The notes under the pieces were generated by a model. It did no database searches. It saw nothing but the letters and a program-made list of their open reading frames with translations, and was not told the DNA's origin. From assembly GCA_035283685.1 (NCBI GenBank), contig DATETJ010000009.1, positions 1-64,000 on the forward strand: a DNA stretch of 64,000 nt, written 5' to 3'. The DNA is from Candidatus Bathyarchaeia archaeon (GTDB taxonomy: Archaea > Thermoproteota > Bathyarchaeia > Bathyarchaeales > Bathyarchaeaceae). The stretch's first letter is position 1, and every line of letters starts with the position of its first letter. Made by a program: the position numbers and the translations under genes. Below are positions 10,710 through 53,551 of this stretch, one piece after another.

Positions 10710-10712
10710 TCA

Positions 10713-12695
10713 TCATTCCTCCTGATGCACTACGATTGTATTAGCTGCTTTCTTTCCACGTTCAGCGATTTTGTCAGACAACCCCACGTAAAAGACCATA
10801 GGTTTAGCGCCAAGATATGCTTTAAGTCCACTCGTGGGGATTGCATCAACGACTTTTCTGACTGCACTATTCGGATCTTGCATGTCGCCAAAGATGCGAG
10901 CGCCTCCAACACAGGCATCAACGCAAGCTGGCTTCAGCCCTTTCTCGATTCTGTGGAAACAGCCATGGCATTTAACTACGAAGCCATGTTTGGCGTCGGC
11001 TTTGCCGTTCCATGCTTGTGGCCAAGCACCCTTGGGTTCTTCCCAAAGAAAACTTCTCACTTCGTAGGGACACGCGGCCATGCAGTACCTGCAACCTATA
11101 CACCTGTTAACGTCTTGCATCACTATGCCATCTTGTTCCCTCTTGTAAGTTGCGTTCACTGGACAGACTTGAGTGCAGGGTGGATTATCGCAGTGATTGC
11201 ATAGTCTTGGAAGAAAGGTTAATTTCATGTTTGGGTATTTGCCTTCTTCGTGAGTTTCAACCCACGTGTATTGTATTCCCATTGGAACTCCGTTTTCAGA
11301 CTTGCACGCTGCAAAGCAGGCTTGACATCCTATGCAACGTCTAAGATCAAGAACCATAGCCCATTCCTCAACGGTTGACGCTTGCGTAATTGCCTCTTGC
11401 TTTGATAGAAAGATTGAAGAGCCCGGAATACTGGCTAACGCCGCTGCGCCTGCTGTAACGCCCGCCGTTATTCTCAAGAAGTCTCTTCTAGAGACATTGG
11501 ATACGTCTTTTACTTGCGGACCTGATCCTATGTCTTGCACGGCGATCATAGACTTTGGCTTTAGTGCAAGCTGACCGCTTGGCAAGATCGCACCTCTAGA
11601 CGCAAGGAAGGGCAGTATCTTGAGGCCTAATGAAAAGAGCAAAGCACCCAACGCATAAAGGCCAACGGAAACTGCCCATTCGATCATAGTTGGACTGTAT
11701 GCTCCTGCTTCCCCAAGCGGGGAAACAGACAATCCCGAGAGAAGCATTGAGTATCTTTTGACCCATATTCCTCTCATCGCAACTAATGCTACAACGGTTA
11801 AGATAGCCGTTGACTTCCTTGTTTTCGGATACGCTAACAGAGCAAAAACGATTAAGGGAATAGCAATCTCAATCCATATCACTGTCACGTAAGGTCCACT
11901 CAGAACCTGCGACAATGGCCCAAGAATGCTAAACCCTGCCCCATAGCCCACCGTGACCAGCTCCACAAAGATGAAAAAGATGTCGACGAGAATAATAGCG
12001 CCGAGAAAACGTGCAAGTTCTGACGTTAGCTCAGATGAAAACTCGAAGACAGAAAACTTGGAAACCAGGAGTGCTGTTAAAATCAGCAGAGAGACTCCTG
12101 AGACCAAAGCTGAGGACAGGAATATGGGAGCGAGGAGAGAGGTGTTCCAAAGCGGTCGCGCCATTATAACTCCAAAAACCCAAGCCGTAAAAGAATGCGC
12201 AAAAACTGCAAAAGGTATTCCAATTGCAGCAACCAAACTCTTAGCATTTTTCCCGCCACTGCCAGTTATAGTCACAAAGCAGAAAACCAAGCAAAAGCCG
12301 ATGTAAAGTGAAAGTGAAACAAAGTCCAAAACAAGCATCGACGACATATTCGGGTATAGAACAATGTTTAGAAGTCGCTCGGGACGACCTATGTCAGCGG
12401 CTACAAAGAGCATCGCCGGCACAACTGTAACCGTTGCAAGAATCCCCCCGATGTGCAATATTGGCTCGAACAGTTTATTGTTCCACAAGTAAGCTACACT
12501 TATGGCAATCATTATGCCAGTGCTTATTCCAACCAAAAATTCGAAATTCGTGATATACACACCCCATATCATCACATCTCTCATACCAGTTGAGGCAAAT
12601 CCCTGCATATATTGCAGATTCAAGGCGTAAACTCCTAATCCAACCAGCACCAGCAAGATTCCTATCCATCCAAGAAACCGAACACTTTTTCTCAT
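10713..12695 (-). CDS. NrfD-type membrane subunit fused to four-cluster ferredoxin (TtrC-TtrB-like fusion)
   Basis: One 660-residue chain joins two subunits normally made separately. Residues 1-390 form an NrfD/PsrC/TtrC-type quinol-binding membrane domain with roughly nine or ten helices. At 403-404 there is a twin arginine in SRRDFLRITAG followed by an Ala-rich segment, exactly like a Tat leader but internal. Residues 450-600 carry four cysteine groups (CIGCQACFAAC, CNHCDNPPCTQVC, CIGCRYCMAAC, CHGC...ACVDAC) for four [4Fe-4S] clusters, as in TtrB. The role would be quinol oxidation and electron delivery to the catalytic subunit. GGGAGGAG precedes the start. The internal leader suggests the ferredoxin half is exported through Tat after the membrane domain is inserted. 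Confidence 0.9.
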   Translation of the reverse strand: MRKSVRFLGWIGILLVLVGLGVYALNLQYMQGFASTGMRDVMIWGVYITNFEFLVGISTGIMIAISVAYLWNNKLFEPILHIGGILATVTVVPAMLFVAADIGRPERLLNIVLYPNMSSMLVLDFVSLSLYIGFCLVFCFVTITGSGGKNAKSLVAAIGIPFAVFAHSFTAWVFGVIMARPLWNTSLLAPIFLSSALVSGVSLLILTALLVSKFSVFEFSSELTSELARFLGAIILVDIFFIFVELVTVGYGAGFSILGPLSQVLSGPYVTVIWIEIAIPLIVFALLAYPKTRKSTAILTVVALVAMRGIWVKRYSMLLSGLSVSPLGEAGAYSPTMIEWAVSVGLYALGALLFSLGLKILPFLASRGAILPSGQLALKPKSMIAVQDIGSGPQVKDVSNVSRRDFLRITAGVTAGAAALASIPGSSIFLSKQEAITQASTVEEWAMVLDLRRCIGCQACFAACKSENGVPMGIQYTWVETHEEGKYPNMKLTFLPRLCNHCDNPPCTQVCPVNATYKREQDGIVMQDVNRCIGCRYCMAACPYEVRSFLWEEPKGAWPQAWNGKADAKHGFVVKCHGCFHRIEKGLKPACVDACVGGARIFGDMQDPNSAVRKVVDAIPTSGLKAYLGAKPMVFYVGLSDKIAERGKKAANTIVVHQEE

Positions 12696-37970: not shown

Positions 37971-39137
37971 ATGTCTGGGTTTGATTTGAAAATAATCGCG
38001 CTAGGTTGCGGCAACATAGGATCGATTGCAGCTGGAGACTTGGCTCAGAGTCTACCTTCAGCGAAAATCGTGGTGGCTGACGTTGACCAAGCCCGAGCTC
38101 AACAGACTGCTGCCAAAATCGGTCGAGACAACGTTGAAAGCATGGCTGTAGACGCCTCCAACTATCGCGAGCTTGTGAGAACAATGAAGGAGTTCGATCT
38201 AGCTGTTGGCGCACTGCCAGGTTTCATGGGTTTCAGAGCCTGCAAGGCTTCAATCTCAGCGGGCGTTGACATGGTTGATGTTTCTTTCATGCCCGAGGAC
38301 GTTATGATGCTGTATAAAGACGCTTTGAAAGCCAATGTCTGTGTTGTCCCTGACTGTGGAATGAGCCCGGGGTTAGGTAGCATATTGGTTGGACACGCGG
38401 TTAGTCAAATGGACCAAGTTGAGAGCGTTCACTTGTTAAACGGGGGGTTGCCAGAGAAGCCTCTTCCTCCATTGGACTATGTGATCACCTGGTCATCGAA
38501 AGACCTTATTGAATTGTACACTCGAAGGGCAAACATTGTGCGAAATGGCAAAACCATTCAAGTCGAAGCGACCACTGGTCTTGAAGAGATTACGTTTCCG
38601 CATGTTGGCAGGTTACAGGGTTTCTACACCGACGGATTGAGAACGTTGCTTCACACGGTTAAAGGCACAAAGGAGATGTGGGAGAAGTCGCTGAGATATC
38701 CCGGACACATTGAAAAAATGAACTTACTTAAAGCTCTCGGCTTTCTCGAAGAGAGACCGGTGAAGGTTGATAGTGTAAGCGTTTCACCACGAAGTCTTAC
38801 CGAAAAACTGCTAGAGATAAAATTAAAGAGGCCAGGAACTCCAGATTTTGTTGCTATGCTTGTTGAGGTCGCTGGGCTGAAAGATGGGAGAAAAGTCAGG
38901 TTTACGTATCAGATGCTGGACCGCTTTGACAAGAGGCGTAAGGTGACAGCCATGGCGAGGACCACGGCTTATACCGCTTCGGTTGTGGCTCAGCTTGTAG
39001 CCAAGAAGACCTTGGATGAGAAAGGTGTGATTCCACCCGAGAGGCTTGGTATGAACGGGAAGCTCTATACGAAGTACATTAACATGATGAGGCAACGAGG
39101 CATTATTGTCAAGGAGAGCAAGAAAAGAATAAACTAA
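37971..39137 (+). CDS. Saccharopine dehydrogenase-like oxidoreductase (copy 2)
   Basis: A 388-residue paralog of the dehydrogenase at 31601, alike over the full length. It has IIALGCGNIGSIAAGDLAQSL for nucleotide binding, VPDCGMSPGLGSILVGHA, and a C-terminal segment ARTTAYTASVVAQLVAKK shared almost word for word. The nucleotide loop GCGNIGS fits NAD(P). Two copies in one cluster suggest successive or alternative substrates. It is followed 48 bases later by the beta-keto acid cleavage enzyme, so oxidation of an amine to a keto acid could feed that enzyme. Confidence 0.85.
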   Translation: MSGFDLKIIALGCGNIGSIAAGDLAQSLPSAKIVVADVDQARAQQTAAKIGRDNVESMAVDASNYRELVRTMKEFDLAVGALPGFMGFRACKASISAGVDMVDVSFMPEDVMMLYKDALKANVCVVPDCGMSPGLGSILVGHAVSQMDQVESVHLLNGGLPEKPLPPLDYVITWSSKDLIELYTRRANIVRNGKTIQVEATTGLEEITFPHVGRLQGFYTDGLRTLLHTVKGTKEMWEKSLRYPGHIEKMNLLKALGFLEERPVKVDSVSVSPRSLTEKLLEIKLKRPGTPDFVAMLVEVAGLKDGRKVRFTYQMLDRFDKRRKVTAMARTTAYTASVVAQLVAKKTLDEKGVIPPERLGMNGKLYTKYINMMRQRGIIVKESKKRIN

Positions 39138-39185
39138 TTCTTTTGACCTCAGTTTGTCTTTTGAGAGGGTGAATAAACGGATAAA

Positions 39186-40010
39186 TTGATAATCACTGTG
39201 GCTCCAACCGGCTCGGTGCCCCGGAAAAAAGACACATCCTATGTGCCGGTGACACCGGACGAGATTGCAGAGACAGCTTACCTTTGTGAGCAAGAAGGTG
39301 CCTCAGTTATCCATGTCCATTGCCGAGACGAGAACGAGAACCCTACATCCGACTACAGTGTGTTCAAAGAAACTGTGGACAAGGTACGGAAGCGCACGCA
39401 TCTTATCGTTATGGCGTCGACAAGTGGCGTCGCAGGCAAGTCTGACGAGGAACGAGCCCAACCGCTTAAGACCAAGCCTGAGATGGCCAGTCTCACAACG
39501 GGTTCGATTAACTTTGCAGGTCGCAAACCCTCAATGGTCTATGTGAACACGTGGGAAACAGTGACTTTCCTTGCTGGGAAAATGCTTCATCTTGGCATCA
39601 AGCCGGAAATCGAAGCGTTTGATGTTGGTTTTATTCACCAAGGCATTAAGCTTGTCCAGCAAGAACTTGTCAAGCAGCCAGCGCACTTTCAATTGGTGAT
39701 GGGAGTTGACGGTGGCATTCCAGCAACTCTAGACAACCTGCTGCACATGACGCGGCAGTTTCCTGAAAAGGCGACGTTCAGTGTTGCAGGAATAGGCCGG
39801 TGGCAGTTGCCCGTGACTACTACGGCTGTGGTTCTAGGCGGGCATGTCCGAGTTGGACTTGAAGACAACATCTATTACGCCAAGGGCAGGCTTGCGGCAA
39901 ATGAGGAGTTTGTTGCTAGGACGCGCAAACTGGCTGAGCACCTTCAGCGTGATTTAGCTTCGCCTAATGAAGCGAGAAGGATTCTGGGGCTGAAACCACG
40001 CCTTCGTTGA
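39186..40010 (+). CDS. Beta-keto acid cleavage enzyme (BKACE, DUF849)
   Basis: A 274-residue TIM-barrel enzyme of the BKACE family, which condenses a beta-keto acid with acetyl-CoA and splits it into acetoacetate and a CoA ester. The zinc site HVH is in SVIHVHCRDENENP, and EAFDVGFI and VMGVDGGIPAT are family blocks. Known members act on 3-keto-5-aminohexanoate (lysine fermentation) or dehydrocarnitine, which suits a neighbourhood of methyltransferases for quaternary amines. The start is a TTG at 39186. Substrate here is unknown, but its pairing with a dehydrogenase suggests a beta-amino or beta-hydroxy acid precursor. Confidence 0.92.
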   Translation: MIITVAPTGSVPRKKDTSYVPVTPDEIAETAYLCEQEGASVIHVHCRDENENPTSDYSVFKETVDKVRKRTHLIVMASTSGVAGKSDEERAQPLKTKPEMASLTTGSINFAGRKPSMVYVNTWETVTFLAGKMLHLGIKPEIEAFDVGFIHQGIKLVQQELVKQPAHFQLVMGVDGGIPATLDNLLHMTRQFPEKATFSVAGIGRWQLPVTTTAVVLGGHVRVGLEDNIYYAKGRLAANEEFVARTRKLAEHLQRDLASPNEARRILGLKPRLR

Positions 40011-40284: not shown

Positions 40285-41763
40285 TTATTGCCTTTGACGC
40301 AGTTTCGGGTTCAATATTTCGTCTAACGCGTATCCGATGAGTATGAATGAGATTGAGATTGCTGCTATAGACAAACCTGGTGGAACTATCCACCACCATC
40401 TTCGAAAGCCTCCTGGTAGTTCCAAAGCTTCGTTCAGCATTCGTCCCCATGTCATGACGAAGGGATCGTAGAGACCCAAGAAACTTAGGTATGCTTCCGC
40501 CATGATGGCGCTAGGCACCGACATGGCCAACGTAACGTAGACTAGATTCATTACATTGGGAAGAATATGTCGTCCTACAATGTGAACCTTACCTGCTCCC
40601 ACAGCCTTAGCAGCTTCAACGAAAGCTCTTTCCTTTAGGCTAAGCGCTTGTGATCTCACTGTCCTCGCAAATCCCATCCATCCAAGGAGACCAATTATTC
40701 CAATGATGTTCCATATTGAAGGACCTAACACTGCTACGATTACAAGGAGCAGCGGCAGTTCGGGTATGACAAGTAACATATCCGTGAATCTCATCATGAC
40801 CTCGTCGACTACTCTCCCAAGATAACCTGCAAACAACCCTACAGCTAGTCCGAGACTCACGGATATTAACGATGCAACTACGCCTACAAGAAGTGATATT
40901 CGTGTTCCATACACAAGCTGGGTAAACACATCAAGCCCAACGTTGTCGGTTCCAAACAAACCAAAGCAGGATCCGTAGAGTCTCAGATCAAGATCGTCAA
41001 CATAAATAGATGCTCTTTGCACTTCGCCCTTAAACACTACTTCAACGCCGTACTTGTAATTAGCTTGCACGGCGAATGTTGTTTTCTGCGGGTCTATGCT
41101 GTATGAATCTATCAACGGCGGGTAAACATAATCACTGTAGACGTTTGGTGTAATCCACGCTTCGCTTTGGTAGTCTCCTCCTTGTTTCGCGCTCCACAGA
41201 TACTTTGGCTCCCCGTCAGCTCGCTGAATGAAGACTTTGATTTCTACGCCCCATTGTGAAGCATTCTTGACGCCTTCCACAAGTATGAAAATTTCACCTC
41301 GGAATCTTTTTGGAGGACCTTCGAAAGGGTAGTAGAACTCTTTGGTCAGAATGGCTTTAACCTGTTCAGTTGATCCAGCACTGTCTCGCTGGAAATCTAT
41401 GGCGACACATCCCGGATCGCCCTCAGGTCTTCCTATGTCAGAAACGTACCTAAGTGTGAGGTCTCCTCCAGGTGTCAATGTTGTAAAGACCCATTGTCCA
41501 ACTGACGTGCCATAAAGGAATCCTGGGTCGTCAATAGGGAAAAGGTTCTCACTCGTCTTTTCATATCCAGGCATATATCTAAACCACGCAGGATAAGCAA
41601 GATCGGCTGCTATCACACGCTTCGAATAGATTGGACTAAATGGCGTTATCAAAGGAGCGCCAAGTGCCAGAAGGCCGAAAAAGGCGAGAATCGCGATCCC
41701 AATCACTGCTCTTTTGCTACGCACCAAAACTTTCAAGAAGTTCAAACTGGGCATTTCTTTCAC
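40285..41763 (-). CDS. Peptide/nickel-type ABC permease (DppC/OppC) with large extracytoplasmic insertion
   Basis: A 492-residue DppC-type permease, nearly 200 residues longer than usual. The N-terminal helix (residues 18-42) is normal. Residues 50-265 form an inserted, mostly beta, hydrophilic domain. The conserved GTDNVGLDVFTQLVYGTRIS resumes at 271, and the EAA loop is EAAKAVGAGKVHIVGRHILPN. The insertion lies where the chain faces outward, so it may contact the substrate-binding protein or other surface proteins. It overlaps the DppB gene by four bases. No ATPase genes accompany the pair. Confidence 0.88.
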   Translation of the reverse strand: MKEMPSLNFLKVLVRSKRAVIGIAILAFFGLLALGAPLITPFSPIYSKRVIAADLAYPAWFRYMPGYEKTSENLFPIDDPGFLYGTSVGQWVFTTLTPGGDLTLRYVSDIGRPEGDPGCVAIDFQRDSAGSTEQVKAILTKEFYYPFEGPPKRFRGEIFILVEGVKNASQWGVEIKVFIQRADGEPKYLWSAKQGGDYQSEAWITPNVYSDYVYPPLIDSYSIDPQKTTFAVQANYKYGVEVVFKGEVQRASIYVDDLDLRLYGSCFGLFGTDNVGLDVFTQLVYGTRISLLVGVVASLISVSLGLAVGLFAGYLGRVVDEVMMRFTDMLLVIPELPLLLVIVAVLGPSIWNIIGIIGLLGWMGFARTVRSQALSLKERAFVEAAKAVGAGKVHIVGRHILPNVMNLVYVTLAMSVPSAIMAEAYLSFLGLYDPFVMTWGRMLNEALELPGGFRRWWWIVPPGLSIAAISISFILIGYALDEILNPKLRQRQ

Positions 41764-42752
41764 CCATATTTAATCCGCGGATCGACAGACCCGTAGACTA
41801 TATCAGCTATGAAATTCGCCACTATTACGCACAAAGCTATGAGGTAGAAGATAGCTTGCATCGCTGGAAAATCCATGTTGTCTATAGATTGCCAAATCCA
41901 GTATCCGAGACCTGGATATGAGAAAACAGTTTCAGTTAGTGTTGCCCCGGAAAGCATGAATCCAAACTCGATTGCTATATAAGTTATCACGGGAAGTGAC
42001 GCATTCTTAAAGGCGTGTTTGAACAAAATCGTCCTCTCACGCAAACCCTTAGCTCGCGCAGTGATCAAATAATCCTCAGAAAGAACCTCAATCATTGACG
42101 CTCTTGTCAAAAGAAGATAACTTCCAGCTAGAATTATTACCAGAGCAGTAGCTGGCAAGACAAGGTGTTGAAGCCTGAAGGCAAGCTCTACTAGTGGATT
42201 AGTTGGCCATCTGCCTGGGAGATTCCATTCCTGAGGATAGGACATCCCGATTGGAAACCAGCCTAATGTGTAGGAGAATATGAGGATCAGGAGCATTCCT
42301 ACCCAAAAAACTGGTAGCGAATTTCCTACTATTGATAAGAGTGAAGACGTAGTATCGAAAATTCCTCCGCGTTTATGTGCTGCAAGGATTCCTAAAACCA
42401 ATCCGATCGCAATGGATATGATCTCTGCTGTTATTACTAATGCGAAAGTTGTCAAAAGGCGTGAGCCAATCTCGTCGTATATGAGTCTTCCAGTGAAGTA
42501 AGAGTAGCCAAATTGAAAGGTCAGCATGCTTTGAACATATTTGACATATCTGATATGGGGTGGATCAAGAAGCCCAAAACGTCTCAGTTGGTACTCGATT
42601 TGGTCTTCTGTGCGCAGCCTCGAAACGTCGGCCAAACGTGACATAGGTCCCCCGGGCATCATCGTGAATATAACAAAGTTGAGTGTAATGACCAGAAATG
42701 TAAGCGCCACAGAATACAGGACTCTTTTTGATATGTACCCTCGTAGGCCCAA
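41760..42752 (-). CDS. Peptide/nickel-type ABC permease (DppB/OppB)
   Basis: A 330-residue DppB-type permease with six helices. It has the N-terminal GYISKRVLYSVALTFLVITLNFVIFTMMPGGP, the conserved FGYSYFTGRLIYDEI, and the EAA loop ITARAKGLRERTILFKHAFKNA that contacts the ATPase. It pairs with the overlapping DppC-like gene and is divergent from the dockerin-bearing substrate-binding protein, together giving the membrane and binding parts of an importer for peptides or sugar/amine oligomers. The ATPases must be encoded elsewhere. Confidence 0.93.
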   Translation of the reverse strand: MGLRGYISKRVLYSVALTFLVITLNFVIFTMMPGGPMSRLADVSRLRTEDQIEYQLRRFGLLDPPHIRYVKYVQSMLTFQFGYSYFTGRLIYDEIGSRLLTTFALVITAEIISIAIGLVLGILAAHKRGGIFDTTSSLLSIVGNSLPVFWVGMLLILIFSYTLGWFPIGMSYPQEWNLPGRWPTNPLVELAFRLQHLVLPATALVIILAGSYLLLTRASMIEVLSEDYLITARAKGLRERTILFKHAFKNASLPVITYIAIEFGFMLSGATLTETVFSYPGLGYWIWQSIDNMDFPAMQAIFYLIALCVIVANFIADIVYGSVDPRIKYG

Positions 42753-42926: not shown

Positions 42927-44954
42927 ATGCATTGCTATTCAAAGAATTTAGTGAGTATTCTGCTTTCTATAACGCTAGTCCTAACGTCCACTATGTCTTT
43001 CATGTCTGTTTCACCAGTGAGCGCACAGTCAGAAACCTATGAAGCCTTTGGACCACGACTTAACGAACTTCTTATCAAAGTGTATCTTGGCGGTCGTGAT
43101 GCCGAGTTTGGGGCTCTGAAAACCGGGCAAATAGACATCGTAGATTGGCCTTTAGACTATGACACCTACCTCGAACTCTTAGGCGACCCGGACAATTTCG
43201 GGGTAGAAACTCTGACTATGATTGACATGTACAACCTGGAACTCAACAACATAAAATGGCCAACAAGCGACGTTAACGTGAGAAGAGCGATAGCTCATCT
43301 GTTTGATAGATCAACGTTTCTCACTACACAGCTGAAATCCTTCAGCGGTGTCATGTTGGATTCACCCATAGCAACTGAATGGACGCAATGGCATAGTCCC
43401 ACTGTGAGGGTATATCCTTATAACCCAACTACAGCGGCACAAATACTCACAAACGCGGGCTATTATGATGACGATACTGATGGAATGAGAGAATATCATA
43501 ACGCGACAGGTAGATACGAACTGCCAACGATGAAGTTCTACATAAGGGCCGACGATCCTGACAGATTGGCTTGGGGCAGAGACTATATGCTTTACGAAAT
43601 TGCAGCACTCGGACTCCCTGTTGAAGGCCTCGTTAGAGACAAGACAGTTTGCTGGGCAGAAGTAATGAAAATGCCATACGACTATAACATATACACTGGT
43701 GGGTGGGGACCCTATGTAGACCCAGACTTCCTATACGACCAGTATCACAGCAAGTTCGGAATAGACTATTGGACTGCAGGAAGAGATTGGGCAAACAATT
43801 ACGTGTTCTTCACTAACTCGACGTTTGACTATTGGGCTGAGCAGCTCAAGTTCGCAGTAGATATGCCTTCTGCGGAATTACCCGCCAAGAAAGCTCAAGA
43901 TATACTGATGGATCAGGTTCCCATGATTCCAGGATGGCACTCTGCAGGTGCTATAGGTTACAGAAAGAACTACGGCCACCACACGGGTGAAGAGGCATAC
44001 TGGGATAAACCATGGAAGGGAATTGTCAACACTAAAGTGATCTCTGGAATGGGCACTGCCGGAGCAAACGGCTTGTGGACTTTCTACAGCGTCCACCCTG
44101 AAGGCTTTGAAAGAGGCGGCACATTCAGATATGGCTTCATGAACGATGCTGACGTTTTCAACCCTGTTCAAGCCGATTTCTATTGGGATTGGGAATTCCT
44201 GAACAAAGTCTATGACTTTCTAATAACTGCCGACCCCGAAACAGGAGCTAATATACCTTGGATGGCGAAGAGCTGGACAGTGGGCACATGGGACAAAGGA
44301 GGAGGCTCGCTTGCCACAAAGATTACCATGGAACTCTATCAAAACATCCTGTGGCACGACGGCCAACCGTTCACCGCATATGACGTTGAATTTACTCTTC
44401 CCTACATGAAAGCCGCCTACTCTTCCTTGTTCTATCCCTATACCGTAAACCTGCACCACGTAACGGCAACAGGCACATACACTGTGGAGATTTATTACGA
44501 TGTCCTAAGTACCTGGGCTCTTCACTGGGCCGGAGGAATACCAATGATTCCCAAGCACATCTGGCAGAGCATACCTCCAGAAGCATCTCGAGAGCAAGGC
44601 GAATACGAAACCACTGGTCACCTGACGGGGACTGGACCATATAGGTTTGTCAGCCGTGAGCAAGGTCAGTCAATAACCCTTGTGGCTAACCCAACTTACT
44701 TCAGAAAACTTGTACGGCCAGACTTCTACACAGGTGGACAAGCAATTCCATATCACAACGGAAAGATTGACCTAGACGACTTCCAAGCTGCGGTATTTCA
44801 CTACGGTGAAGCATCTCCATGGTCGCATGCAATTGACCCATGGTCCGACGTGAACAAAGACTTGGTCATAGAATTGGACGACGTCATGGAAATCGGTGTT
44901 CGCTACGGACAAACAGGATACCAGAATGGCTACCCAGGGTTCTACTATCCATAA
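42927..44954 (+). CDS. Family 5 ABC substrate-binding protein with C-terminal dockerin
   Basis: A 675-residue secreted protein with a signal peptide over residues 1-33. Motifs of family 5 solute-binding proteins appear in unusual order: GALKTGQIDIV (62-72) and VNVRRAIAHLFDR (116-128) come first, then RGGTFRYG (396-403), WHDGQPFTAYDVEFT (476-490) and GTGPYRF (568-574), which normally lead. Residues 611-665 are a type I-like dockerin; the second calcium loop DVNKDLVIELDD is canonical, while the first, IPYHNGKIDLDD, lacks the leading acidic ligands. No lipobox or membrane anchor is visible, so retention probably depends on binding cohesins encoded downstream. The likely substrate is a peptide or oligomer. 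Confidence 0.9.
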   Translation: MHCYSKNLVSILLSITLVLTSTMSFMSVSPVSAQSETYEAFGPRLNELLIKVYLGGRDAEFGALKTGQIDIVDWPLDYDTYLELLGDPDNFGVETLTMIDMYNLELNNIKWPTSDVNVRRAIAHLFDRSTFLTTQLKSFSGVMLDSPIATEWTQWHSPTVRVYPYNPTTAAQILTNAGYYDDDTDGMREYHNATGRYELPTMKFYIRADDPDRLAWGRDYMLYEIAALGLPVEGLVRDKTVCWAEVMKMPYDYNIYTGGWGPYVDPDFLYDQYHSKFGIDYWTAGRDWANNYVFFTNSTFDYWAEQLKFAVDMPSAELPAKKAQDILMDQVPMIPGWHSAGAIGYRKNYGHHTGEEAYWDKPWKGIVNTKVISGMGTAGANGLWTFYSVHPEGFERGGTFRYGFMNDADVFNPVQADFYWDWEFLNKVYDFLITADPETGANIPWMAKSWTVGTWDKGGGSLATKITMELYQNILWHDGQPFTAYDVEFTLPYMKAAYSSLFYPYTVNLHHVTATGTYTVEIYYDVLSTWALHWAGGIPMIPKHIWQSIPPEASREQGEYETTGHLTGTGPYRFVSREQGQSITLVANPTYFRKLVRPDFYTGGQAIPYHNGKIDLDDFQAAVFHYGEASPWSHAIDPWSDVNKDLVIELDDVMEIGVRYGQTGYQNGYPGFYYP

Positions 44955-44977
44955 CACGAACAGGAGAGTGAAATAGA

Positions 44978-46525
44978 ATGAAAATAAAAAATATGATTTG
45001 GCTGTCCCTAGTAGCCTTGTTGCTCACAAGCACCATGGCGGGCATAGCGCCCGCGCCAACAACAGCTCGAGTATATGTTGATCCGTCAGCCATCGTGGAT
45101 CCAACAAAGGTTGTGGGAAGTGTCTTCGCTGTCAGTGTCAATGTCGCAGATGTAGCCAATCTCTACGGCTGGAGCTTCAAACTGTTCTTCAACCCCAGCG
45201 TAATTCAAGTAACAGCAATCACTCTTCCATCACCTAGTTTCCTTCGGTCCGCTGGCCCAACCATGGTCCTTTCGAGAAGATATGACAACGCTGTAGGCTA
45301 CGCCTACGTAAGCGAAGTGCTGAGAATCCCATATCCACCTTCGGGAGCAAGCGGCAGCGGAATCTTCGCCACCATCTCATTCCAAGTGGTTGGCGTGGGT
45401 GTAACCATGTTGGACCTGCAAGAGACCAAACTCAACACTGTGATTGCAGGAAACACTGTTCCTATGCCACACCTAGCTGAAGACGGTTTGTTTGACAATA
45501 GGGTGACTAATCAGCCACCAGTTGCCATCTTTTCGGTGACTCCATCAATTGGGACAGTAGGAACCGTGTTCAAGTTTGATGCCAGCGCTTCCCATGACGA
45601 CGCCTGGATAGCGAGTTACCTCTGGGACTTCGGTGACGGAACTAATGCCACAAACAAGGTAATGGAAAGGACATGGGACTCGGGCACTGAGGGAACATAC
45701 ACCATCACTCTGACTGTAACGGACAACAACGGCGCGAGCGACTCGGCTCAATACGCTCTAACAGTCTACGCATGGATGCAAGCTGGAGATCATCCAGACC
45801 TCATAAAAACCCTGATTTGGCCAGAACGTCCTGTGTTCAAAGAAGCCGATTTCGGAGAACACGAAACGCTTTGGGCAAAAGTTGGCAACCCGACCGACCA
45901 GTCTTACCAAGTGCGAGTTGCCTTTGACATATACAGCAAAGACGAAGGCCTGAAACTGGGAACTATCAGCACCGCAGTTGAAACCATACTTCCGCACGAA
46001 GAGAAAGACCTTCCAGCTGACTTTTTCCTAGGCGATTCTAGATGGAAGACCACCACAGGTCCATATAACTGGCCATATTGGGTCAAGAAGTACTGGGCGA
46101 TAGGAAGATGCTTCTACCTCGACGAACCCACCATGGAATGGAAGGCGGGAATCTTTCCGGGACCCAACCAATTCAAGATACATCCAGTAGTTCACGACCG
46201 CGCCATAATAGCCATGTCTGCCAACGCCAGCGGATCAAATCCAGCCCACGTCGGGGACCTGGTTGAAATCACCATCACCCTCGAAAATCAAGGCGAACAG
46301 ATAGAACACGAAATTCCTCTAACCTTGCGCGTGTTTAAGGTGGGCACAATTGGCACGGCAACACCTACTTTGACGATTGGACAAAGTGAGACATTGACTT
46401 TCTACTGGGAAATAACCGCTGACCTCGGACCCGGCAACTACGTTATCATTGCTGAAGCAGGCCAACACCCATACGAAAGAGACATCATCGACAATTCGAT
46501 GTACGTACTAGTTGCTGTTTCCTAG
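44978..46525 (+). CDS. Secreted cohesin-PKD-CARDB protein
   Basis: A 515-residue secreted protein with an N-terminal signal (MKIKNMIWLSLVALLLTSTM). Residues 30-175 are a cohesin (VVGSVFAVSVNVADVANLYGWSFKLFFNPSVI, ending GLFDN). Residues 178-270 form a PKD domain (SYLWDFGDGTN). An Ig-like region of unclear type follows, and residues 405-512 form a CARDB-like domain. It has no C-terminal helix, so the protein is either released or held by other partners. It begins 23 bases after the dockerin-tagged binding protein, preceded by AGGAGAG, so the two are very likely made together and may bind each other. Confidence 0.85.
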   Translation: MKIKNMIWLSLVALLLTSTMAGIAPAPTTARVYVDPSAIVDPTKVVGSVFAVSVNVADVANLYGWSFKLFFNPSVIQVTAITLPSPSFLRSAGPTMVLSRRYDNAVGYAYVSEVLRIPYPPSGASGSGIFATISFQVVGVGVTMLDLQETKLNTVIAGNTVPMPHLAEDGLFDNRVTNQPPVAIFSVTPSIGTVGTVFKFDASASHDDAWIASYLWDFGDGTNATNKVMERTWDSGTEGTYTITLTVTDNNGASDSAQYALTVYAWMQAGDHPDLIKTLIWPERPVFKEADFGEHETLWAKVGNPTDQSYQVRVAFDIYSKDEGLKLGTISTAVETILPHEEKDLPADFFLGDSRWKTTTGPYNWPYWVKKYWAIGRCFYLDEPTMEWKAGIFPGPNQFKIHPVVHDRAIIAMSANASGSNPAHVGDLVEITITLENQGEQIEHEIPLTLRVFKVGTIGTATPTLTIGQSETLTFYWEITADLGPGNYVIIAEAGQHPYERDIIDNSMYVLVAVS

Positions 46526-46582
46526 CAAAAGGAAGCAGCCATCATCCCCTTTTTTGTTCATTCAGTCAGGAGTCGTCTACCA

Positions 46583-48178
46583 ATGGAGAGAAAATTCACA
46601 TCTCTCACGATTGCAACGCTTCTTTTATTGGCGACCTTGTCAGCGGCTGTGCAACTCAGCCGTGCTGTCACTTGGTCAACCGACGTAAGATTGACAACTG
46701 ATCCCAGCGATGATTGGGATCCATCTATCACCCAGACAAGTGATGGAAGAATATGGGTGACTTGGCATTCGGGCAGAACAGGAAACTATGAGGTTTTTTA
46801 TAAGATTTCTTCCGATAATGGCATTTCTTGGTCCGACGACATCCAGCTGACTTTCGATACCTATCGAGATTCTCATTCGTCAATTCTGCAGACCGCTGAC
46901 GGAAGAATATGGATTGTTTGGGATTCTGATAGAACGGGTGATTTCGAGCTTTACTACAAGACATCGATTAACAATGGAGCATCGTGGTCTGGGGATACTC
47001 GTTTGACAGTAGATCCCGCTCGTGACAGCTATCCCTCAATTATGCAATCATCAGACGGAAAAGTTTGGATTTTTTGGAGTTCTGGCAGAAACGTAACGGT
47101 ATCGCCACCCGACCCGACATACGAGCCGTCGGCTAACGTTTTCTTCAAGTCTTCTTTTGACTCTGGCCAACCATGGTCTGATGACACGCTACTTGTGACT
47201 GACTATAAGAACAACTATTGGGATGACTTGTATCCGTCATGTATGCAAGCGGCAAACGGTAGCATATGGGTAGTTTGGGCTAAAGAGGCACGGGAGATCT
47301 ACGCGAAAACTTATAATGGCACTCACTGGTTGGGAGAAGTGCGGTTGACAACCGATCCAAAAGATGACACACATCCGTTTATAATGCAAACTGCAAACGA
47401 GAGGATCTGGGTTTTTTGGGACTCTGACAGAAACGCACATGATACGGACATATACTATAAAATCTTTGATGGGTCATGGACAAATGATGTTCAGTTAACC
47501 ACGTCGATGGAAGATGATGATTGGCCGAGTGCCGTGCAGACTAACGACTTAAGAATCTGGGTAACGTGGAACTCTCCGCGATACCCTCAGCTGGTCTACG
47601 ACATATTCTATAGGAGCGGTGTTGAGCTTCATGATGTTGCAGTGCGTAGTGTAACGCCGTACACTCCTAGCCACAATAATATTACCTTCGCGTATAGAGG
47701 AGAAATTGTTTATTTTGAAGTAGAGGTTGAGAATCAGGGAGAAGGAAAGGAAACTTTCGAAGTCAAATGCTACGCTAACTCAACGCAGTTGGGCCAGACA
47801 ATAGTGACTTTGGATTCTGGGAGGTCTTTTGTTTTAGTTTTTGAGTGGAATACGACCAAAGTCAAGCCTGGGATCTATGTGCCAAACGCAGTCGCAGTTG
47901 CTGTTCAAGGAGAAGTAGACACTTCAGACAACTATTTTGCTGGTGCTTCATTTGTGGTTAGGATTAGAGGCGACATATGCGGTTGGTACAGTGGCGTTTT
48001 GATGCCCTTTCCAGACAAGCGTGTTAACCTTGATGATTTCATGGTGGTTGTGTTTAACTACGGCACGGCAGATCCATCTTGGAATCCAGTTTGGGGTCCA
48101 GCTTGCGATATCACTGAAGATAGTGTGGTGGACATTGACGATGTCATGACGGTGAGTATTCATTATGGAGAGACATAA
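46583..48178 (+). CDS. Secreted six-repeat beta-propeller with CARDB and dockerin
   Basis: A 531-residue secreted protein with a signal peptide at 1-30. Six repeats of about 50 residues follow (to about 350), each built as W..D..LT.D...D..PS..Q..DGRIWV.W.S.R....... .YYK, like BNR/sialidase-type blades, predicting a six-bladed propeller. A CARDB-like domain (350-455) leads to a dockerin (about 463-531) with second loop DITEDSVVDIDD canonical and first loop MPFPDKRVNLDD degenerate. Catalytic residues of sialidases are not evident, so it may bind rather than cut glycans. It should dock on the cohesins encoded around it. Confidence 0.85.
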   Translation: MERKFTSLTIATLLLLATLSAAVQLSRAVTWSTDVRLTTDPSDDWDPSITQTSDGRIWVTWHSGRTGNYEVFYKISSDNGISWSDDIQLTFDTYRDSHSSILQTADGRIWIVWDSDRTGDFELYYKTSINNGASWSGDTRLTVDPARDSYPSIMQSSDGKVWIFWSSGRNVTVSPPDPTYEPSANVFFKSSFDSGQPWSDDTLLVTDYKNNYWDDLYPSCMQAANGSIWVVWAKEAREIYAKTYNGTHWLGEVRLTTDPKDDTHPFIMQTANERIWVFWDSDRNAHDTDIYYKIFDGSWTNDVQLTTSMEDDDWPSAVQTNDLRIWVTWNSPRYPQLVYDIFYRSGVELHDVAVRSVTPYTPSHNNITFAYRGEIVYFEVEVENQGEGKETFEVKCYANSTQLGQTIVTLDSGRSFVLVFEWNTTKVKPGIYVPNAVAVAVQGEVDTSDNYFAGASFVVRIRGDICGWYSGVLMPFPDKRVNLDDFMVVVFNYGTADPSWNPVWGPACDITEDSVVDIDDVMTVSIHYGET

Positions 48179-48265
48179 CGCTTCAACCCAAGCAGCGCGG
48201 CAGGATTGTGCAACTAGCGAAAGTTTCATAAATTTACGCTTCTACACTGTAGAAATCCTCGAAGC

Positions 48266-48916
48266 GTGGTGCTATTGATCAAGAACCTGAAGCTGCTCTT
48301 CCTGTTCTGCGCTCTTGGATACATCCTCATTGCCAAAGAAGTAGCAATTGCCTCCCCAGCAGCCGAGATCGCTATGAAGCCTGCAGAGGTACTGGATGTA
48401 TCAGCTGGCGCAACGTTCTATGTTAACCTGACTATAACTAACGTAAACAACCTTTATGGTTGGCAAGTGAACGTCACGTTTAATCCAAATATACTAAACG
48501 TGGCTAGCACCGATGAGGGCCCATTTCTCAAACAAGTAAACGAGACCGTAGTCATGAAGAGAGTGAACAACGAAGGCGGCTTTCTGCTTCTGTCGTCATC
48601 ATTTACGGTTCCTTATCCAACGCAGGGAGCTACAGGAAGCGGGCTTCTCGCGACTGTAACATTCACTGTGAAAGGCCAAGGGGCTTCGTCTTTGAACTTC
48701 GTAAAGGGGACCAAGCTGAACACTGTGCCGCCGCCTTACCAAACGGTGCTTCCTATTACGGATTTTACCTCAGTTGGTGGGTCTTTTAGAAATGCGACCG
48801 GCGGTTTGGAACTTGGAATTCCGTTAGAGTGGATAGCAGCCATAGTAGTTGTCATTGTGGCAGTCGGTGCCTCAGTGCTCTTCATCACGAGAAGGAGAAA
48901 AGGGCGGTCCAGATAG
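48266..48916 (+). CDS. Membrane-anchored single cohesin protein
   Basis: A 216-residue surface protein with a signal peptide at the N-terminus, then a cohesin over residues 33-180 (FYVNLTITNVNNLYGWQVNVTFNP, EGPFLKQ, GATGSGLLATVTFTV). A C-terminal helix (WIAAIVVVIVAVGASVLFI) follows, with a strongly basic cytoplasmic tail RRRKGRSR. The layout is that of a minimal anchoring cohesin, able to hold one dockerin-bearing partner at the cell surface. The start is a GTG at 48266. The 87-base gap upstream includes an AT-rich box (TTTCATAAATTT). Confidence 0.87.
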   Translation: MVLLIKNLKLLFLFCALGYILIAKEVAIASPAAEIAMKPAEVLDVSAGATFYVNLTITNVNNLYGWQVNVTFNPNILNVASTDEGPFLKQVNETVVMKRVNNEGGFLLLSSSFTVPYPTQGATGSGLLATVTFTVKGQGASSLNFVKGTKLNTVPPPYQTVLPITDFTSVGGSFRNATGGLELGIPLEWIAAIVVVIVAVGASVLFITRRRKGRSR

Positions 48917-48962
48917 AAATCAAGCGTAATCTGACAAATTTGATTTGTGAGGTAAACAGAAA

Positions 48963-49943
48963 ATGAAACAGCGTCTGTTGCGAACGTTGTTTTTTGGCTC
49001 TTTGCTAATTGGGTTCACATTTACGTTGGGTGCCTGCGGTATTGCGCTAGCCTCTCCAGACACCACAGTTTATTTGGAGCCTGAAACAAGTGCTTGGTTG
49101 CCTAGTACAGTGTTCAACATCACTGTTTCCATAGCTGACGTTTCTGAACTTTATGGTTGGCAGTTCAATCTCACCTTTAATCCGGCTGTTCTCGAGGCGC
49201 TTGAGTTCTACGAGGGCCCGTTTCTCAAGCAAGCCGCGCTAGCGCAGGGTGGAGACACGTATGAGTTGCCGACGACTCTCAACAATACAGCGGGCTGGGT
49301 GTTCGCAGGTCGTGCTTTCAGTACACCCTTAGACCAAGGAGCAAGTGGCAGCGGAATCCTTGCTTACGTGACGTTTAATGCGACGGCTGAAGGAACAAGT
49401 AGTTTGGAGTTTTATGCTCCTGGAACAGACACTTTCCTTAATACAATGAACCCAGACACGCAACTGCCGGAACGCATAAGCTTTACTCCAGTCGGCGGTT
49501 CAGTCAATGTGGCGCTAGTGCATGATGTAGCCGTTACTGGTCTGACGGTTTCTGAATCGAGGGTTACGGTTGGAGCTAACGTGTCCGTTGTAGTGAACGT
49601 TAAGAATAACGGAAGCGTAGCAGAAACATTCGATGTTACTTTATCCTATGACTCTACAGTCATAAAAATCCAAACTGTGAGTGGACTTGCGCCAGGCGAC
49701 TCGGAATCGTTGAGTTTCACTTGGAATACTAAAGAGTTGGCCACACAAGACTATACGATAACCGCCACCGCGAGTACTGTTTCAGGCGAAACTCAAACAT
49801 CTAACAATGCTGACAGCGTCGTTGTCTCTGTAGTATCACCTGCGCCTATTGTTCCGATGGAAGTGTTAGTTGCGGTTATCGTAGTGATAGTAGTTGTGGG
49901 TGCGATAGCATTCTTCTACGTGAAACGCAGATCAAAAAAGTAG
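48963..49943 (+). CDS. Membrane-anchored cohesin-CARDB protein
   Basis: A 326-residue surface protein with a signal peptide (residues 1-30). The cohesin spans 33-185 (VFNITVSIADVSELYGWQFNLTFNP, EGPFLKQ, GASGSGILAYVTF), a CARDB domain spans 190-295, and a C-terminal helix (VLVAVIVVIVVVGAIAFFYV) ends in the basic tail KRRSKK. The CARDB part probably serves as a stalk lifting the cohesin from the membrane. It follows the single-cohesin gene by 46 bases and is likely in the same transcript. Confidence 0.87.
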   Translation: MKQRLLRTLFFGSLLIGFTFTLGACGIALASPDTTVYLEPETSAWLPSTVFNITVSIADVSELYGWQFNLTFNPAVLEALEFYEGPFLKQAALAQGGDTYELPTTLNNTAGWVFAGRAFSTPLDQGASGSGILAYVTFNATAEGTSSLEFYAPGTDTFLNTMNPDTQLPERISFTPVGGSVNVALVHDVAVTGLTVSESRVTVGANVSVVVNVKNNGSVAETFDVTLSYDSTVIKIQTVSGLAPGDSESLSFTWNTKELATQDYTITATASTVSGETQTSNNADSVVVSVVSPAPIVPMEVLVAVIVVIVVVGAIAFFYVKRRSKK

Positions 49944-50055
49944 CCCGTAGGCTTTCTTTTCTTACAGCTTCATCTTTCCTGCAATATAACGATAGGCTGA
50001 GTAAGCTTGATAAAGTCCATGAACGCTCTTATATTCACGGTTAAGAGAGGGGAGA

Positions 50056-52779
50056 ATGATGGCGTCTAGAAGAAGATTATCATGGGCTCTGCTTGGAATT
50101 CTGTTTCTCAGCCTCGTAGCAATACAAGGAGTTTACTTGGGAAAGGCTCCGACAATACCAAATGTCTTCGTTGACCCCCCAGAAACAATTGATCCCGGCA
50201 AGATCGTGGGAAGTACTTTCACGATAAATGTGAACGTTTCAAATGTCCAAGAGCTTTACGGCTGGCAGGTTAACATGACGTTCAATCCAGCCGTTGTGAA
50301 CACGACGGTCCTCTCCATTAAGGAGGGCCCTTTCCTTAAACAAAGCGGCTACCCAACCCAAGCACTCGCCAAGAAAGTAAATAATACGCTTGGCACCATT
50401 TTGGTCGGATACATGCTGAAGTTCCCCTACCCTCCCCATGGAGCCTCTGGCAGCGGAACCCTAGTTAATATCACCTTCACGGTCAGGGCAGAAGAAAGAG
50501 GCACTCTCCTACGGTTCGTAACAGGAACGAAACTGAATACAGTTGTAGGTACCACTCTTGTACCAATAGAACACACAACAGAAGATGGCCTCTTTGACAA
50601 CAGAACAGGAAATGCATCTCCACTTGCCAGCTTTTCAGCTGACCCGTCTACTGCCGGCGTGAGTGACACCATTAGGTTTAACGCTTCCGCCAGTTACGAC
50701 CCTGACGCCTGGCTGGTTAGCTATCATTGGGATTACGGAGACGACGAAACAGAAGTCTACATGCGAGGACCTCTAAAGAACATAAACCTAACAGCTAAAA
50801 CAACGCACACCTACACTCATGCTGGAATCTACACCGTCGCCCTCACAGTCACAGACAACGATGGTGCAACAGCCACAACAACAGCCAGCGTGACAATAGG
50901 TAATGATGTAGCAATCATCGGAATCAAAACCTCACATATTGCAGTGATGCCCGGAGTCCCAGTAACCATCAACGCCACCGTGGCAAACGAGGGCTATGGC
51001 TACGTGGAAAGCTTCAACGTTACGGCTTACTACAATGACACGGCTATTGAAACGCAAGAACTAGTTGACTTTGCACCTCAAACGGAAACGACGGTTATTT
51101 TCACATGGAATACGACAAGTGTTAGCTTAGGCAAGTACATAATAAAAGTCAATGCCACCGTTGAAGAAGATTACGAAAAGAGCAATAATGAGTTAGTCGA
51201 CGGCGCGATTACAATCTCGCTAACCAATATCGTGGATTACCCAGTTGTCGTAGGCGGCTTCACATTCCACGTCATCGTGGAAAGCACCTCCATCACTTCA
51301 GATTTCAATTTTATTCGAGTAGACAAGAGAATAGGCTTCAACGTTACGGGAGAAACTGGCACCGGAGGTTTCACCAATGTTACTATTCCAATAGACCTTC
51401 TAGGTGGTCCTTACACGGTTTTCTTCGAAGACGCCTCTATAATTCCGGAGCCACAAGAGACAACAAATGGAACTCACACATTCCTGCATTTCACCTACGC
51501 ACATAGCTCTCACATGGTGGAGATACATGGTACAACCGTGGCCACTCCCCCTATAGCGATCTTCACAACCTCAACATCACGCGCAGTCGCTGGCACACCA
51601 GTAAGCTTCAACGCCACTGATAGCTATGACCCAGACGGAAACATAGAACACTACCACTGGAACTTTGGCGACGGCAACATCACCACAGTCGATGACCCAA
51701 TCATAACGCACTCCTATACATCAGCAGACAACTGCACAGTGACTCTCACCGTGGAGGACAACAAACAGCTAATCAATTCAGCTCAAGCTACTATCACAAT
51801 CATAGACCATCCCAACGCTGATTTCACATATTACCCCACTGCTCCCCTCGTGGATGCAACGGTGACCTTCAACGCGTCAAACTCACAGGCAAATGGCGGA
51901 AAAATAATCAACTACAGATGGCACTTCGGCGACGGAAATTCTGCCATTGGGATAACGGCGAACCATACCTACGGCGCAACTGGAAAGTATGAAGTCGTTT
52001 TGAACGTCACAGATGACGAAGGGCTCTGGGACATTGAAACAAGAAATGTGACGATTTCAATCCACAACATAGGCATCACGGCTCTCACAGCCACTCCAGA
52101 CTCGGTCAGAATCGGGCAACAAGTGACTATAAGCATTACAGTAACTAACAAAGGCAACTTCGCAGAAACCTTCGACATCACAGCCTACTACGACGACACA
52201 GCCATTCAATCAATAACAGCTACAAACCTAGCCACTGAAGCATCTGAGACAAAAACCATTCTCTGGGACACCACGGAAGTCAATCCAGACACCTACAACC
52301 TAAAAGCAATCGCAACCGCTGTAACTGGAGAAACCGAAACAAACGACAATACATTCATCGTTGAAAACGCTGTGTCAATTCAAAAACTAGACAGTCAATT
52401 GTCAATATCCGCATCGCCAACCGTCTTCACGCTTGGAGCAACCACAAACATCAATGGAACAATCAGCCCAATCCGCCAAAGTGCAACCATCACAATACTC
52501 TACAAACTGGTCGACGAACAAACATGGAAAACACTAGGCACCGCAACCACAAATGCACAAGGCCAATACACCATTGACTGGAAGCCCGATGGAGTCGGAA
52601 CCTACGAGATCATAGCCAGCTGGCAAGGAGACACAACGACCTTCCCAAGTGAAAGCACGCCTGAAACAATCACTGTTCAGGAACCGCCAACCACAACATT
52701 GCTCTATATAGGAGCCGCCGTCATAACGATCGCGGTTGCAGCCGCAGCATTCTACTTCCTCAGAAGTAGGAAACACTAG
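50056..52779 (+). CDS. Large membrane-anchored cohesin scaffold with PKD and CARDB stalk
   Basis: A 907-residue surface protein. The signal peptide ends near residue 30. The cohesin occupies about 35-190 (FTINVNVSNVQELYGWQVNMTFNP, EGPFLKQ, GASGSGTLVNITF). A long stalk follows: PKD (190-285), CARDB (288-390), an unassigned beta domain (390-505), two PKD domains with HWNFGDGN and RWHFGDGN (505-680), a second CARDB (680-780) and an Ig-like domain (785-875). It ends in a helix (LLYIGAAVITIAVAAAAFYFL) and RSRKH. It would present one cohesin far from the membrane. ATG 50056 and ATG 50059 are both possible; GAGAGGGGAGA precedes them. Confidence 0.87.
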   Translation: MMASRRRLSWALLGILFLSLVAIQGVYLGKAPTIPNVFVDPPETIDPGKIVGSTFTINVNVSNVQELYGWQVNMTFNPAVVNTTVLSIKEGPFLKQSGYPTQALAKKVNNTLGTILVGYMLKFPYPPHGASGSGTLVNITFTVRAEERGTLLRFVTGTKLNTVVGTTLVPIEHTTEDGLFDNRTGNASPLASFSADPSTAGVSDTIRFNASASYDPDAWLVSYHWDYGDDETEVYMRGPLKNINLTAKTTHTYTHAGIYTVALTVTDNDGATATTTASVTIGNDVAIIGIKTSHIAVMPGVPVTINATVANEGYGYVESFNVTAYYNDTAIETQELVDFAPQTETTVIFTWNTTSVSLGKYIIKVNATVEEDYEKSNNELVDGAITISLTNIVDYPVVVGGFTFHVIVESTSITSDFNFIRVDKRIGFNVTGETGTGGFTNVTIPIDLLGGPYTVFFEDASIIPEPQETTNGTHTFLHFTYAHSSHMVEIHGTTVATPPIAIFTTSTSRAVAGTPVSFNATDSYDPDGNIEHYHWNFGDGNITTVDDPIITHSYTSADNCTVTLTVEDNKQLINSAQATITIIDHPNADFTYYPTAPLVDATVTFNASNSQANGGKIINYRWHFGDGNSAIGITANHTYGATGKYEVVLNVTDDEGLWDIETRNVTISIHNIGITALTATPDSVRIGQQVTISITVTNKGNFAETFDITAYYDDTAIQSITATNLATEASETKTILWDTTEVNPDTYNLKAIATAVTGETETNDNTFIVENAVSIQKLDSQLSISASPTVFTLGATTNINGTISPIRQSATITILYKLVDEQTWKTLGTATTNAQGQYTIDWKPDGVGTYEIIASWQGDTTTFPSESTPETITVQEPPTTTLLYIGAAVITIAVAAAAFYFLRSRKH

Positions 52780-52846
52780 AAATATGAAAGTGGAAAACTT
52801 GATAAATATGACCAACGCATGTATAAATAAGAGAGGGGAGAGTCCA

Positions 52847-53551
52847 ATGAAGGGAAAATTATCCCCACTGCTCATGCTAGCAGTTGTTCTAGCCATTCTG
52901 CTTACCCCAAAACCGGTCTCATCACCGCCTACAACAGTGGTTGGCACACAACCTTTACCAAGCACTGCCGCAGCAGGTACGAACTTTAACGTCAACGTCA
53001 CAATAGCAGATGTCCAGAATCTTTACGGCTGGGAGATCAACATGACCTTCAACCCAATCGTCTTGAACGTTTCAGACATGGTTGAAGGGCCTTTCCTCCT
53101 TGATTTCGCGGATTTGATGGGAGTCAGCACTTGGCCGCTGGGCCCACTAATCGACAACGACGTTGGCTGGGTTCAAATGTCAAACTCCCTCTTTCCACTT
53201 CCAGATCCCCCCGACGGAGCCGACGGCAGCGGAGTCCTTGCAACGATCACTTTCCACGTACTCACCAATGGCACAGTTCCTCTGCACTTCAACGAGACAC
53301 TGCTCAATACGAATGTTGGTGGTCTTCCAACACCTATCCCGCATACAGCTAGAGACGGCTTCTTCCAATTACCGCTAGGTGACATAAACAGCGACGGCAT
53401 AGTTGCAATCAGAGACCTAAGAATCCTTGGAAAAGCCTATGGCAGCGCATTCGGTCAACCATCGTATAACCCAGATGCAGACCTGAACAAAGATGACCTA
53501 GTCAATCGCAGTGACCTTATCATTGTCAGCGGCAACTATGGAAGAACTTAG
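52847..53551 (+). CDS. Secreted cohesin-dockerin adaptor
   Basis: A 234-residue secreted protein bearing both partner modules. After the signal peptide, the cohesin occupies about 35-172 (NFNVNVTIADVQNLYGWEINMTFNP, EGPFLL, GADGSGVLATITF), followed at once by a dockerin (176-234) with two canonical loops, DINSDGIVAIRD and DLNKDDLVNRSD. With one of each it could bridge a membrane-anchored cohesin and another dockerin protein, or self-assemble into chains. ATG 52847 is chosen because GAGAGGGGAGAG lies just upstream and the signal peptide begins there; the frame extends further upstream without merit. Confidence 0.88.
   Translation: MKGKLSPLLMLAVVLAILLTPKPVSSPPTTVVGTQPLPSTAAAGTNFNVNVTIADVQNLYGWEINMTFNPIVLNVSDMVEGPFLLDFADLMGVSTWPLGPLIDNDVGWVQMSNSLFPLPDPPDGADGSGVLATITFHVLTNGTVPLHFNETLLNTNVGGLPTPIPHTARDGFFQLPLGDINSDGIVAIRDLRILGKAYGSAFGQPSYNPDADLNKDDLVNRSDLIIVSGNYGRT

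Follow-up and report, generated by a model that had tools for sequence, protein, structure and literature searches.

A circularly permuted, dockerin-bearing family-5 binding protein in a conserved cohesin-dockerin cluster next to permease genes of Bathyarchaeia

We analysed a stretch of 64,000 nucleotides (the window; positions 1-64000 of contig C9) from the 2.28-Mb genome (G000) of a Candidatus Bathyarchaeia archaeon; L and G codes below denote loci and genomes, respectively. All seven open reading frames (ORFs) that a first-pass annotation had listed from the sequence alone were present, one after another, on the + strand at 42927-53551, with intergenic gaps of 23-112 bp (Table 1). As that annotation had recognised, they encode five cohesins and three dockerins. 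The dockerins are C-terminal, and the row lies divergently to genes for OppB- and OppC-type permeases. We found that the first protein of the row, a family-5 solute-binding protein of the ATP-binding cassette (ABC) transporter type that ends in a dockerin, is circularly permuted, and that the C-terminal half of its OppA/NikA fold precedes the N-terminal half. The permutation is the most unusual trait of the locus and had been overlooked by the first-pass annotation.

N-terminal signal-like segments were observed by hydropathy in all seven proteins, and C-terminal helices only in the 48266, 48963, and 50056 proteins, in agreement with the signal peptides and the three membrane-anchored cohesins described before; the anchored proteins have three lengths (216, 326, and 907 residues). 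The binding protein contains neither a C-terminal helix nor a lipobox-like Cys near the cleavage region, in agreement with the earlier claim that it has no anchor of its own. A purine-rich GGAG/GAGG-like stretch lies 5' of most of the seven ORFs. The start of the final gene is most likely at 52847; a longer alternative ORF from 52736 runs into the preceding gene.

Table 1 Features of the permease and cohesin-dockerin genes (positions in the window)
Feature	Position	Strand	Basis
OppC-type permease	40285..41763	-	Pfam BPD_transp_1 and OppC_N; NCBIfam Opp4C from residue 269
OppB-type permease, divergent from the binding-protein gene	41760..42752	-	Pfam BPD_transp_1 (E 1e-44); NCBIfam Opp2B
Circularly permuted family-5 solute-binding protein, signal peptide, C-terminal dockerin	42927..44954	+	
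Part homologous to the C-terminal half of OppA/NikA, first in order	43032..44036	+	Residues ~36-370; phmmer against PDB; Pfam PF00496 positions 146-363
Part homologous to the N-terminal half of OppA/NikA, second in order	44109..44717	+	Residues ~395-597; phmmer against PDB; Pfam PF00496 positions 3-147
Divergent dockerin of the binding protein	44742..44933	+	Own profile, 24.1 bits; weak PDB matches including dockerin 2y3n_B
Cohesin-PKD-CARDB protein without dockerin or C-terminal helix	44978..46525; cohesin ~45113-45418	+	Pfam; own cohesin profile, 66 bits; hydropathy
BNR-type beta-propeller, CARDB, C-terminal dockerin	46583..48178; dockerin 48014-48175	+	Pfam BNR_2 and CARDB; own dockerin profile, 36.6 bits; weak PDB dockerin matches
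Short anchored cohesin	48266..48916; cohesin 48404-48700; C-terminal helix ~48824-48889	+	Pfam cohesin, 41.7 bits; hydropathy
Anchored cohesin-CARDB protein	48963..49943; cohesin 49101-49415; C-terminal helix ~49851-49925	+	Pfam; hydropathy
Long anchored cohesin with three PKD, two CARDB, and Big_3_5	50056..52779; cohesin 50206-50493; C-terminal helix ~52696-52761	+	Pfam; own cohesin profile, 78 bits; hydropathy
Adaptor, cohesin and canonical two-loop dockerin	52847..53551; cohesin 52964-53290; dockerin 53378-53548	+	Pfam for both domains; AlphaFold model of the cohesin part

The Pfam and NCBIfam family-5 profiles matched the 42927 protein in two stretches whose order was swapped (SBP_bac_5, PF00496; total of 142.9 bits, cut-off 32.4). 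When the protein was compared with the PDB by phmmer, residues 395-596 aligned to residues 10-210 of the chain and residues 31-268 to residues 175-415, in several independent structures. The cut point corresponds to the passage from the first to the second half of the fold, at about residue 190 of NikA/OppA. Foldseek gave NikA/OppA matches (E down to 1e-14) on an AlphaFold model of low confidence (mean predicted local distance difference test score (pLDDT) of 50.8, and about 30 in the dockerin part); thus, we make no structural claim beyond the matches to this fold family. The same profile read the canonical order of the halves in the ordinary archaeal proteins of L029, L245, and L246, so the method separates permuted from canonical proteins. 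For this gene, duplication of a complete binding protein in tandem was ruled out, as each half is present once, and an assembly or gene-model error behind the swapped halves was ruled out by 65 proteins from more than 30 genomes that are alike.

Paralogues on contigs C11 and C2 are permuted in the same way. All five family-5 proteins found in the source genome are permuted, three of them as above (type I) and two with a different order (type II), in which PF00496 positions 289-357 come before positions 1-284. These type II permutants, which start within the last domain, are encoded in L235 (733-3054; C2:598-600k) and L236 (724-2814; C11:104-106k). Further type II permutants were seen in L028, L043, L247, L248, L253-L255, and L045, the last from a Desulfobacterales bacterium, and the type therefore ranges over Bathyarchaeia, Geothermarchaeota, and apparently one bacterium. 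Most have a C-terminal membrane helix, and a dockerin occurred in none of those examined.

With respect to the cohesins, the Pfam genome scan placed the domain (PF00963) above the cut-off in all five proteins. In the Pfam protein scan, the 44978 cohesin fell slightly under the cut-off (22.8 vs 24.1 bits, E of 1e-4) and the 50056 cohesin was not listed, although the genome scan had called it; our own cohesin profile recognised both (Table 1). The adaptor cohesin, the one of the five that was modelled, gave an AlphaFold model with a pLDDT of about 77-93 (less than 50 in the dockerin part), and the PDB matches listed (E down to 3e-8, probability 1.0) were all cohesins, among them Archaeoglobus fulgidus 2xdh.

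The Pfam dockerin domain (PF00404) was called only in the adaptor (27.5 bits). As the sole detector, Pfam was insufficient for the 42927 and 46583 proteins and was replaced by our own profile, built from 22 Pfam-called dockerins of the source genome and related genomes and controlled with about 10,000 shuffles; both proteins scored far above the shuffle maximum of 11.0 bits (Table 1). The assignment of the modules by profile searches, as envisaged in the first-pass annotation, thus succeeded with Pfam for the cohesins and the adaptor dockerin, and failed with Pfam for the other two dockerins, for which our own profile was needed. In the alignment, both calcium loops of the adaptor dockerin and the second loop of the binding-protein dockerin are intact. 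The binding-protein and propeller dockerins are more alike to each other than to that of the adaptor.

We then searched 189 genomes of the class, each at least 80% complete, in which permutants occurred in several families, and compared the C-terminal ends. The C-terminus was read in 65 type I permutants: a dockerin is present in 43, a membrane helix in 13, and neither in 9 (some truncated, some very divergent); none has both. The helix type was seen in 11 genomes, ten of Bathyarchaeia and one of Thorarchaeota, none of which yielded a cohesin. Of the 26 genomes with dockerin-type proteins, 25 encode a cohesin (E<=1e-4), and in the remaining one (G162) the match is below threshold. In cohesin-bearing genomes, 11 sampled canonical or type II family-5 proteins have no dockerin, most of them having a membrane helix, and nine further type I permutants have a dockerin. 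In a tree built from the binding core, the dockerin or helix label switches at least twice, each time along with the presence of cohesin. This exclusive use of a dockerin or a helix and its co-occurrence with cohesin support the suggestion, drawn from sequence comparison, that docking may replace the membrane anchor on the binding protein.

Two loci seen in this survey are described here separately. In L041 (9953-18419; Thorarchaeota, SHMX01000004), three tandem permuted family-5 genes each encode their own C-terminal membrane helix, and this genome has about ten permuted-family matches and no cohesin. In L134 (G018; 7936-8448 and 8579-11500), a dockerin-less permuted binding protein is immediately followed by a short ORF of its own that consists mostly of a dockerin; the gene may have been split, or the ORF may encode a docking subunit that acts independently.

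Clusters of the same plan occur in three copies in the source genome (the window, L006, and L009). The shared plan comprises divergent OppC/OppB genes, the permuted binding protein with its dockerin, an unanchored cohesin, the propeller-dockerin protein, anchored cohesins, and cohesin-dockerin proteins. The cluster was also found, whole or in part, in G015, G008, G004, G036, G047, G053, and others. The first-pass annotation had proposed a survey of relatives for dockerin-ended binding proteins near anchored cohesins; we found a permuted binding protein near an anchored cohesin in 11 loci of 9 genomes. The propeller-dockerin protein and a cohesin that lacks both helix and dockerin also recur in several copies, and the description of a cluster built around the binding protein is too narrow in that the cluster is not built around it solely.

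The OppC-type permease has about 220 extra residues, extracellular, between the first and second membrane helices, for which no relative was found in the PDB. The extra segment was considered as a dockerin-specific trait and was not supported as such, as the helix-anchored system of L147 has an OppC of similar length (486 residues). An OppC of similar or greater length was also seen in relatives.

Elsewhere in the genome, dockerins are carried by, among others, a subtilase, a kelch protein, a DUF362 protein, two beta-helix proteins of the NosD type, several propeller-like proteins, and further proteins that also contain a cohesin. The subtilase (L155, 621-3245; C2:503-506k) is a secreted Peptidase_S8 protein with CARDB and a C-terminal dockerin. 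When ten further proteins of the genome with a dockerin or a cohesin were scanned, it was the only one that was clearly an enzyme. In the window cluster itself, the Pfam scan recognised no enzyme. The earlier statement that the cargo is not an enzyme accordingly holds for this cluster and does not extend to the genome. A wider dockerin network, perhaps with a protease feeding the receptor, may exist.

We consider that the cluster probably encodes a surface-assembled uptake system with a docked permuted receptor, anchored cohesins beside the permease, and the propeller as a second cargo. The soluble binding protein would be secreted, and its C-terminal dockerin would then hold it at the cell by binding cohesins of the same cluster; three of these would be embedded in the membrane, with a short, a medium, and a long stalk, next to OppB/OppC. 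The beta-propeller protein, with a dockerin like that of the binding protein, would be a second cargo of the same cohesin sockets, and the cohesin-dockerin adaptor would extend or branch the assembly. In relatives that have no cohesin, the same kind of binding protein would sit on its own membrane helix. We infer that the dockerins bind the cohesins of the cluster and that docking serves to retain and concentrate the receptor; its substrate, judged from family membership, would be of the oligopeptide or nickel type. By reasoning and not as a result, the model of the binding protein being of low confidence, tethering at the hinge end might leave the cleft free toward the permease. A further step that we put forward tentatively is a non-degradative use of cohesin and dockerin as exchangeable receptor anchoring near the permease: the permutation may have moved the chain end to the hinge for tethering, stalks of different length may give a replaceable and concentrated receptor layer, and permutation and tethering may be linked in evolution.

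Several observations weigh against an uptake system of this kind. A profile derived from the C2 copy detected no OppD or OppF ATPase gene in the window; both genes are present in the C2 cluster and ATPase genes lie near the C11 cluster, and the window permeases may share ATPases encoded elsewhere. The first calcium loop is degenerate in the 42927 and 46583 dockerins. The second gene of the row encodes an unanchored cohesin, so a docked protein is not necessarily held at the membrane. The test of anchor exchange on the tree comprises only two independent contrasts, too few to reach significance, and has low statistical weight, which makes it a consistent pattern and not a statistical proof. In addition, L134 and L139 contain permutants with neither dockerin nor helix in cohesin-bearing genomes, and some dockerin-type loci, such as L137 and L141, have no cohesin within the stretch examined.

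Other explanations should be weighed against the docked uptake system. The PKD, CARDB, and propeller domains form much of the cluster, repeat architectures (propeller-like, NosD beta-helix, and kelch) are found in many of the remaining dockerin proteins of the genome, and the gene nearest to that of the binding protein encodes the cohesin without an anchor; furthermore, the cohesins and dockerins of anaerobic methanotrophic (ANME) archaea have been discussed in terms of cell contact (PMC5244752). These features would suit an adhesive or S-layer-like extracellular matrix, in which the binding protein would be a ligand-binding adhesin or sensor and not a transport receptor. We regard such a matrix as rather unlikely, because the OppB/OppC genes adjoin the binding-protein gene in all three copies of the source genome and in many relatives, and because permease and ATPase genes are likewise found next to the homologous helix-anchored type.

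Another alternative is a degradative, cellulosome-like complex in which dockerin enzymes encoded elsewhere would share the cohesins and the docked receptor would capture their products. The dockerin-bearing subtilase would match an oligopeptide-type binding protein, and cohesin-plus-dockerin adaptors are present. However, the window cluster contains no recognised enzyme, each of its proteins has at most one cohesin (at most two per protein in the genome regions examined, with no protein of many tandem cohesins), and the subtilase dockerin is canonical and recognised by Pfam, which the binding-protein dockerin is not; we therefore think a degradative complex very unlikely. The degenerate first calcium loop, together with the very divergent or absent dockerin of some permutants, could also be taken to mean that the dockerin is a relic or a dimerisation module with no anchoring function. 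To this we give hardly any credence, as the dockerin is kept in 43 of the 65 permutants across several families, is tied to the presence of cohesin, and never occurs together with a membrane helix.

The proposed docked uptake system resembles several known systems in part. Dockerin-bearing NikA/OppA and TroA binding proteins were reported to be common in ANME archaea (Chadwick et al. 2022; PMC9012536), so the core idea has already been published as an observation. The direction of the docking-as-anchor idea in the first-pass annotation is supported by the exclusive dockerin or helix and by the pairing with anchored cohesins in clusters, and its description as a new way is not. In both cases archaeal ABC binding proteins carry dockerins in genomes with cohesins, and function and partners are likewise hypothetical; the permutation, the conserved cluster with anchored cohesins, and the exchange with a helix are not mentioned in the part of that paper considered here. 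The bindosome (Bas system) of Sulfolobus gathers ABC binding proteins at the archaeal surface, and its loss impairs growth on the transported sugars (PMC4187195). It is likewise a surface assembly of binding proteins, although it consists of other parts, with no cohesin or dockerin (PMC4187195). A bindosome is marked by a class III (pilin-type) signal peptide on the binding protein and by adjacent genes for pilus-type assembly. The N-terminus of the 42927 protein reads as an ordinary signal peptide by hydropathy, without a dedicated class III prediction, and no pilus-type assembly-gene family was called among nine proteins scanned around the locus, no genome-wide search having been made.

The cluster shares with cellulosomes the dockerin cargo, the anchored cohesins, and an adaptor with both modules. 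It differs in that the cargo in these archaea consists of a binding protein and a propeller and not of carbohydrate-degrading enzymes, that the cohesins are single, each on its own membrane protein and not in a multi-cohesin scaffoldin, and that polysaccharide-degrading dockerin enzymes were not among the proteins of the cluster or the ten others scanned. An isolated cohesin of Archaeoglobus fulgidus (2xdh) is also archaeal and non-cellulosomal and matches the adaptor cohesin in fold, whereas no conserved transporter cluster has been established for it in the literature searched. A natural circular permutation of an ABC binding protein is known in TpMglB-2 (Tp0684), whose authors proposed that this topology and tethering arose together (PMC4990184). 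TpMglB-2 is, however, a lipoprotein with the cluster B sugar-binding fold, and the Bathyarchaeia proteins belong to cluster C (family 5) and have the anchor or dockerin at the new C-terminus. No earlier description of permuted family-5 binding proteins was found in the open-licence literature. As far as we searched, three features are new: the circular permutation of the receptor, the interchange of dockerin and membrane helix, and a cluster that is both conserved and repeated.

In the surroundings of the transporter, genes at 37971-40010 (+) read by eye as encoding saccharopine-dehydrogenase-like and BKACE-like (3-keto-5-aminohexanoate cleavage) enzymes, which hints at amino-acid degradation next to the transporter. 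An Rfam search found nothing, and promoter- and terminator-like sites were not more frequent than in shuffles.

Non-cellulosomal cohesins and dockerins, including those of Archaea, have had no known role (PMC5244752, PMC9012536). The compact and repeated cluster described here names cargo, anchor, and permease together, and the helix-bearing receptor in genomes without cohesin provides a natural control; the decades-old puzzle of what archaeal cohesins and dockerins do thus becomes testable with a handful of recombinant domains. Within the literature searched, this is apparently the first description of natural circular permutation in the OppA/NikA family. That all family-5 proteins found in this genome are permuted, at two cut points, brings back the idea put forward for Treponema MglB-2 that permutation and tethering are associated.
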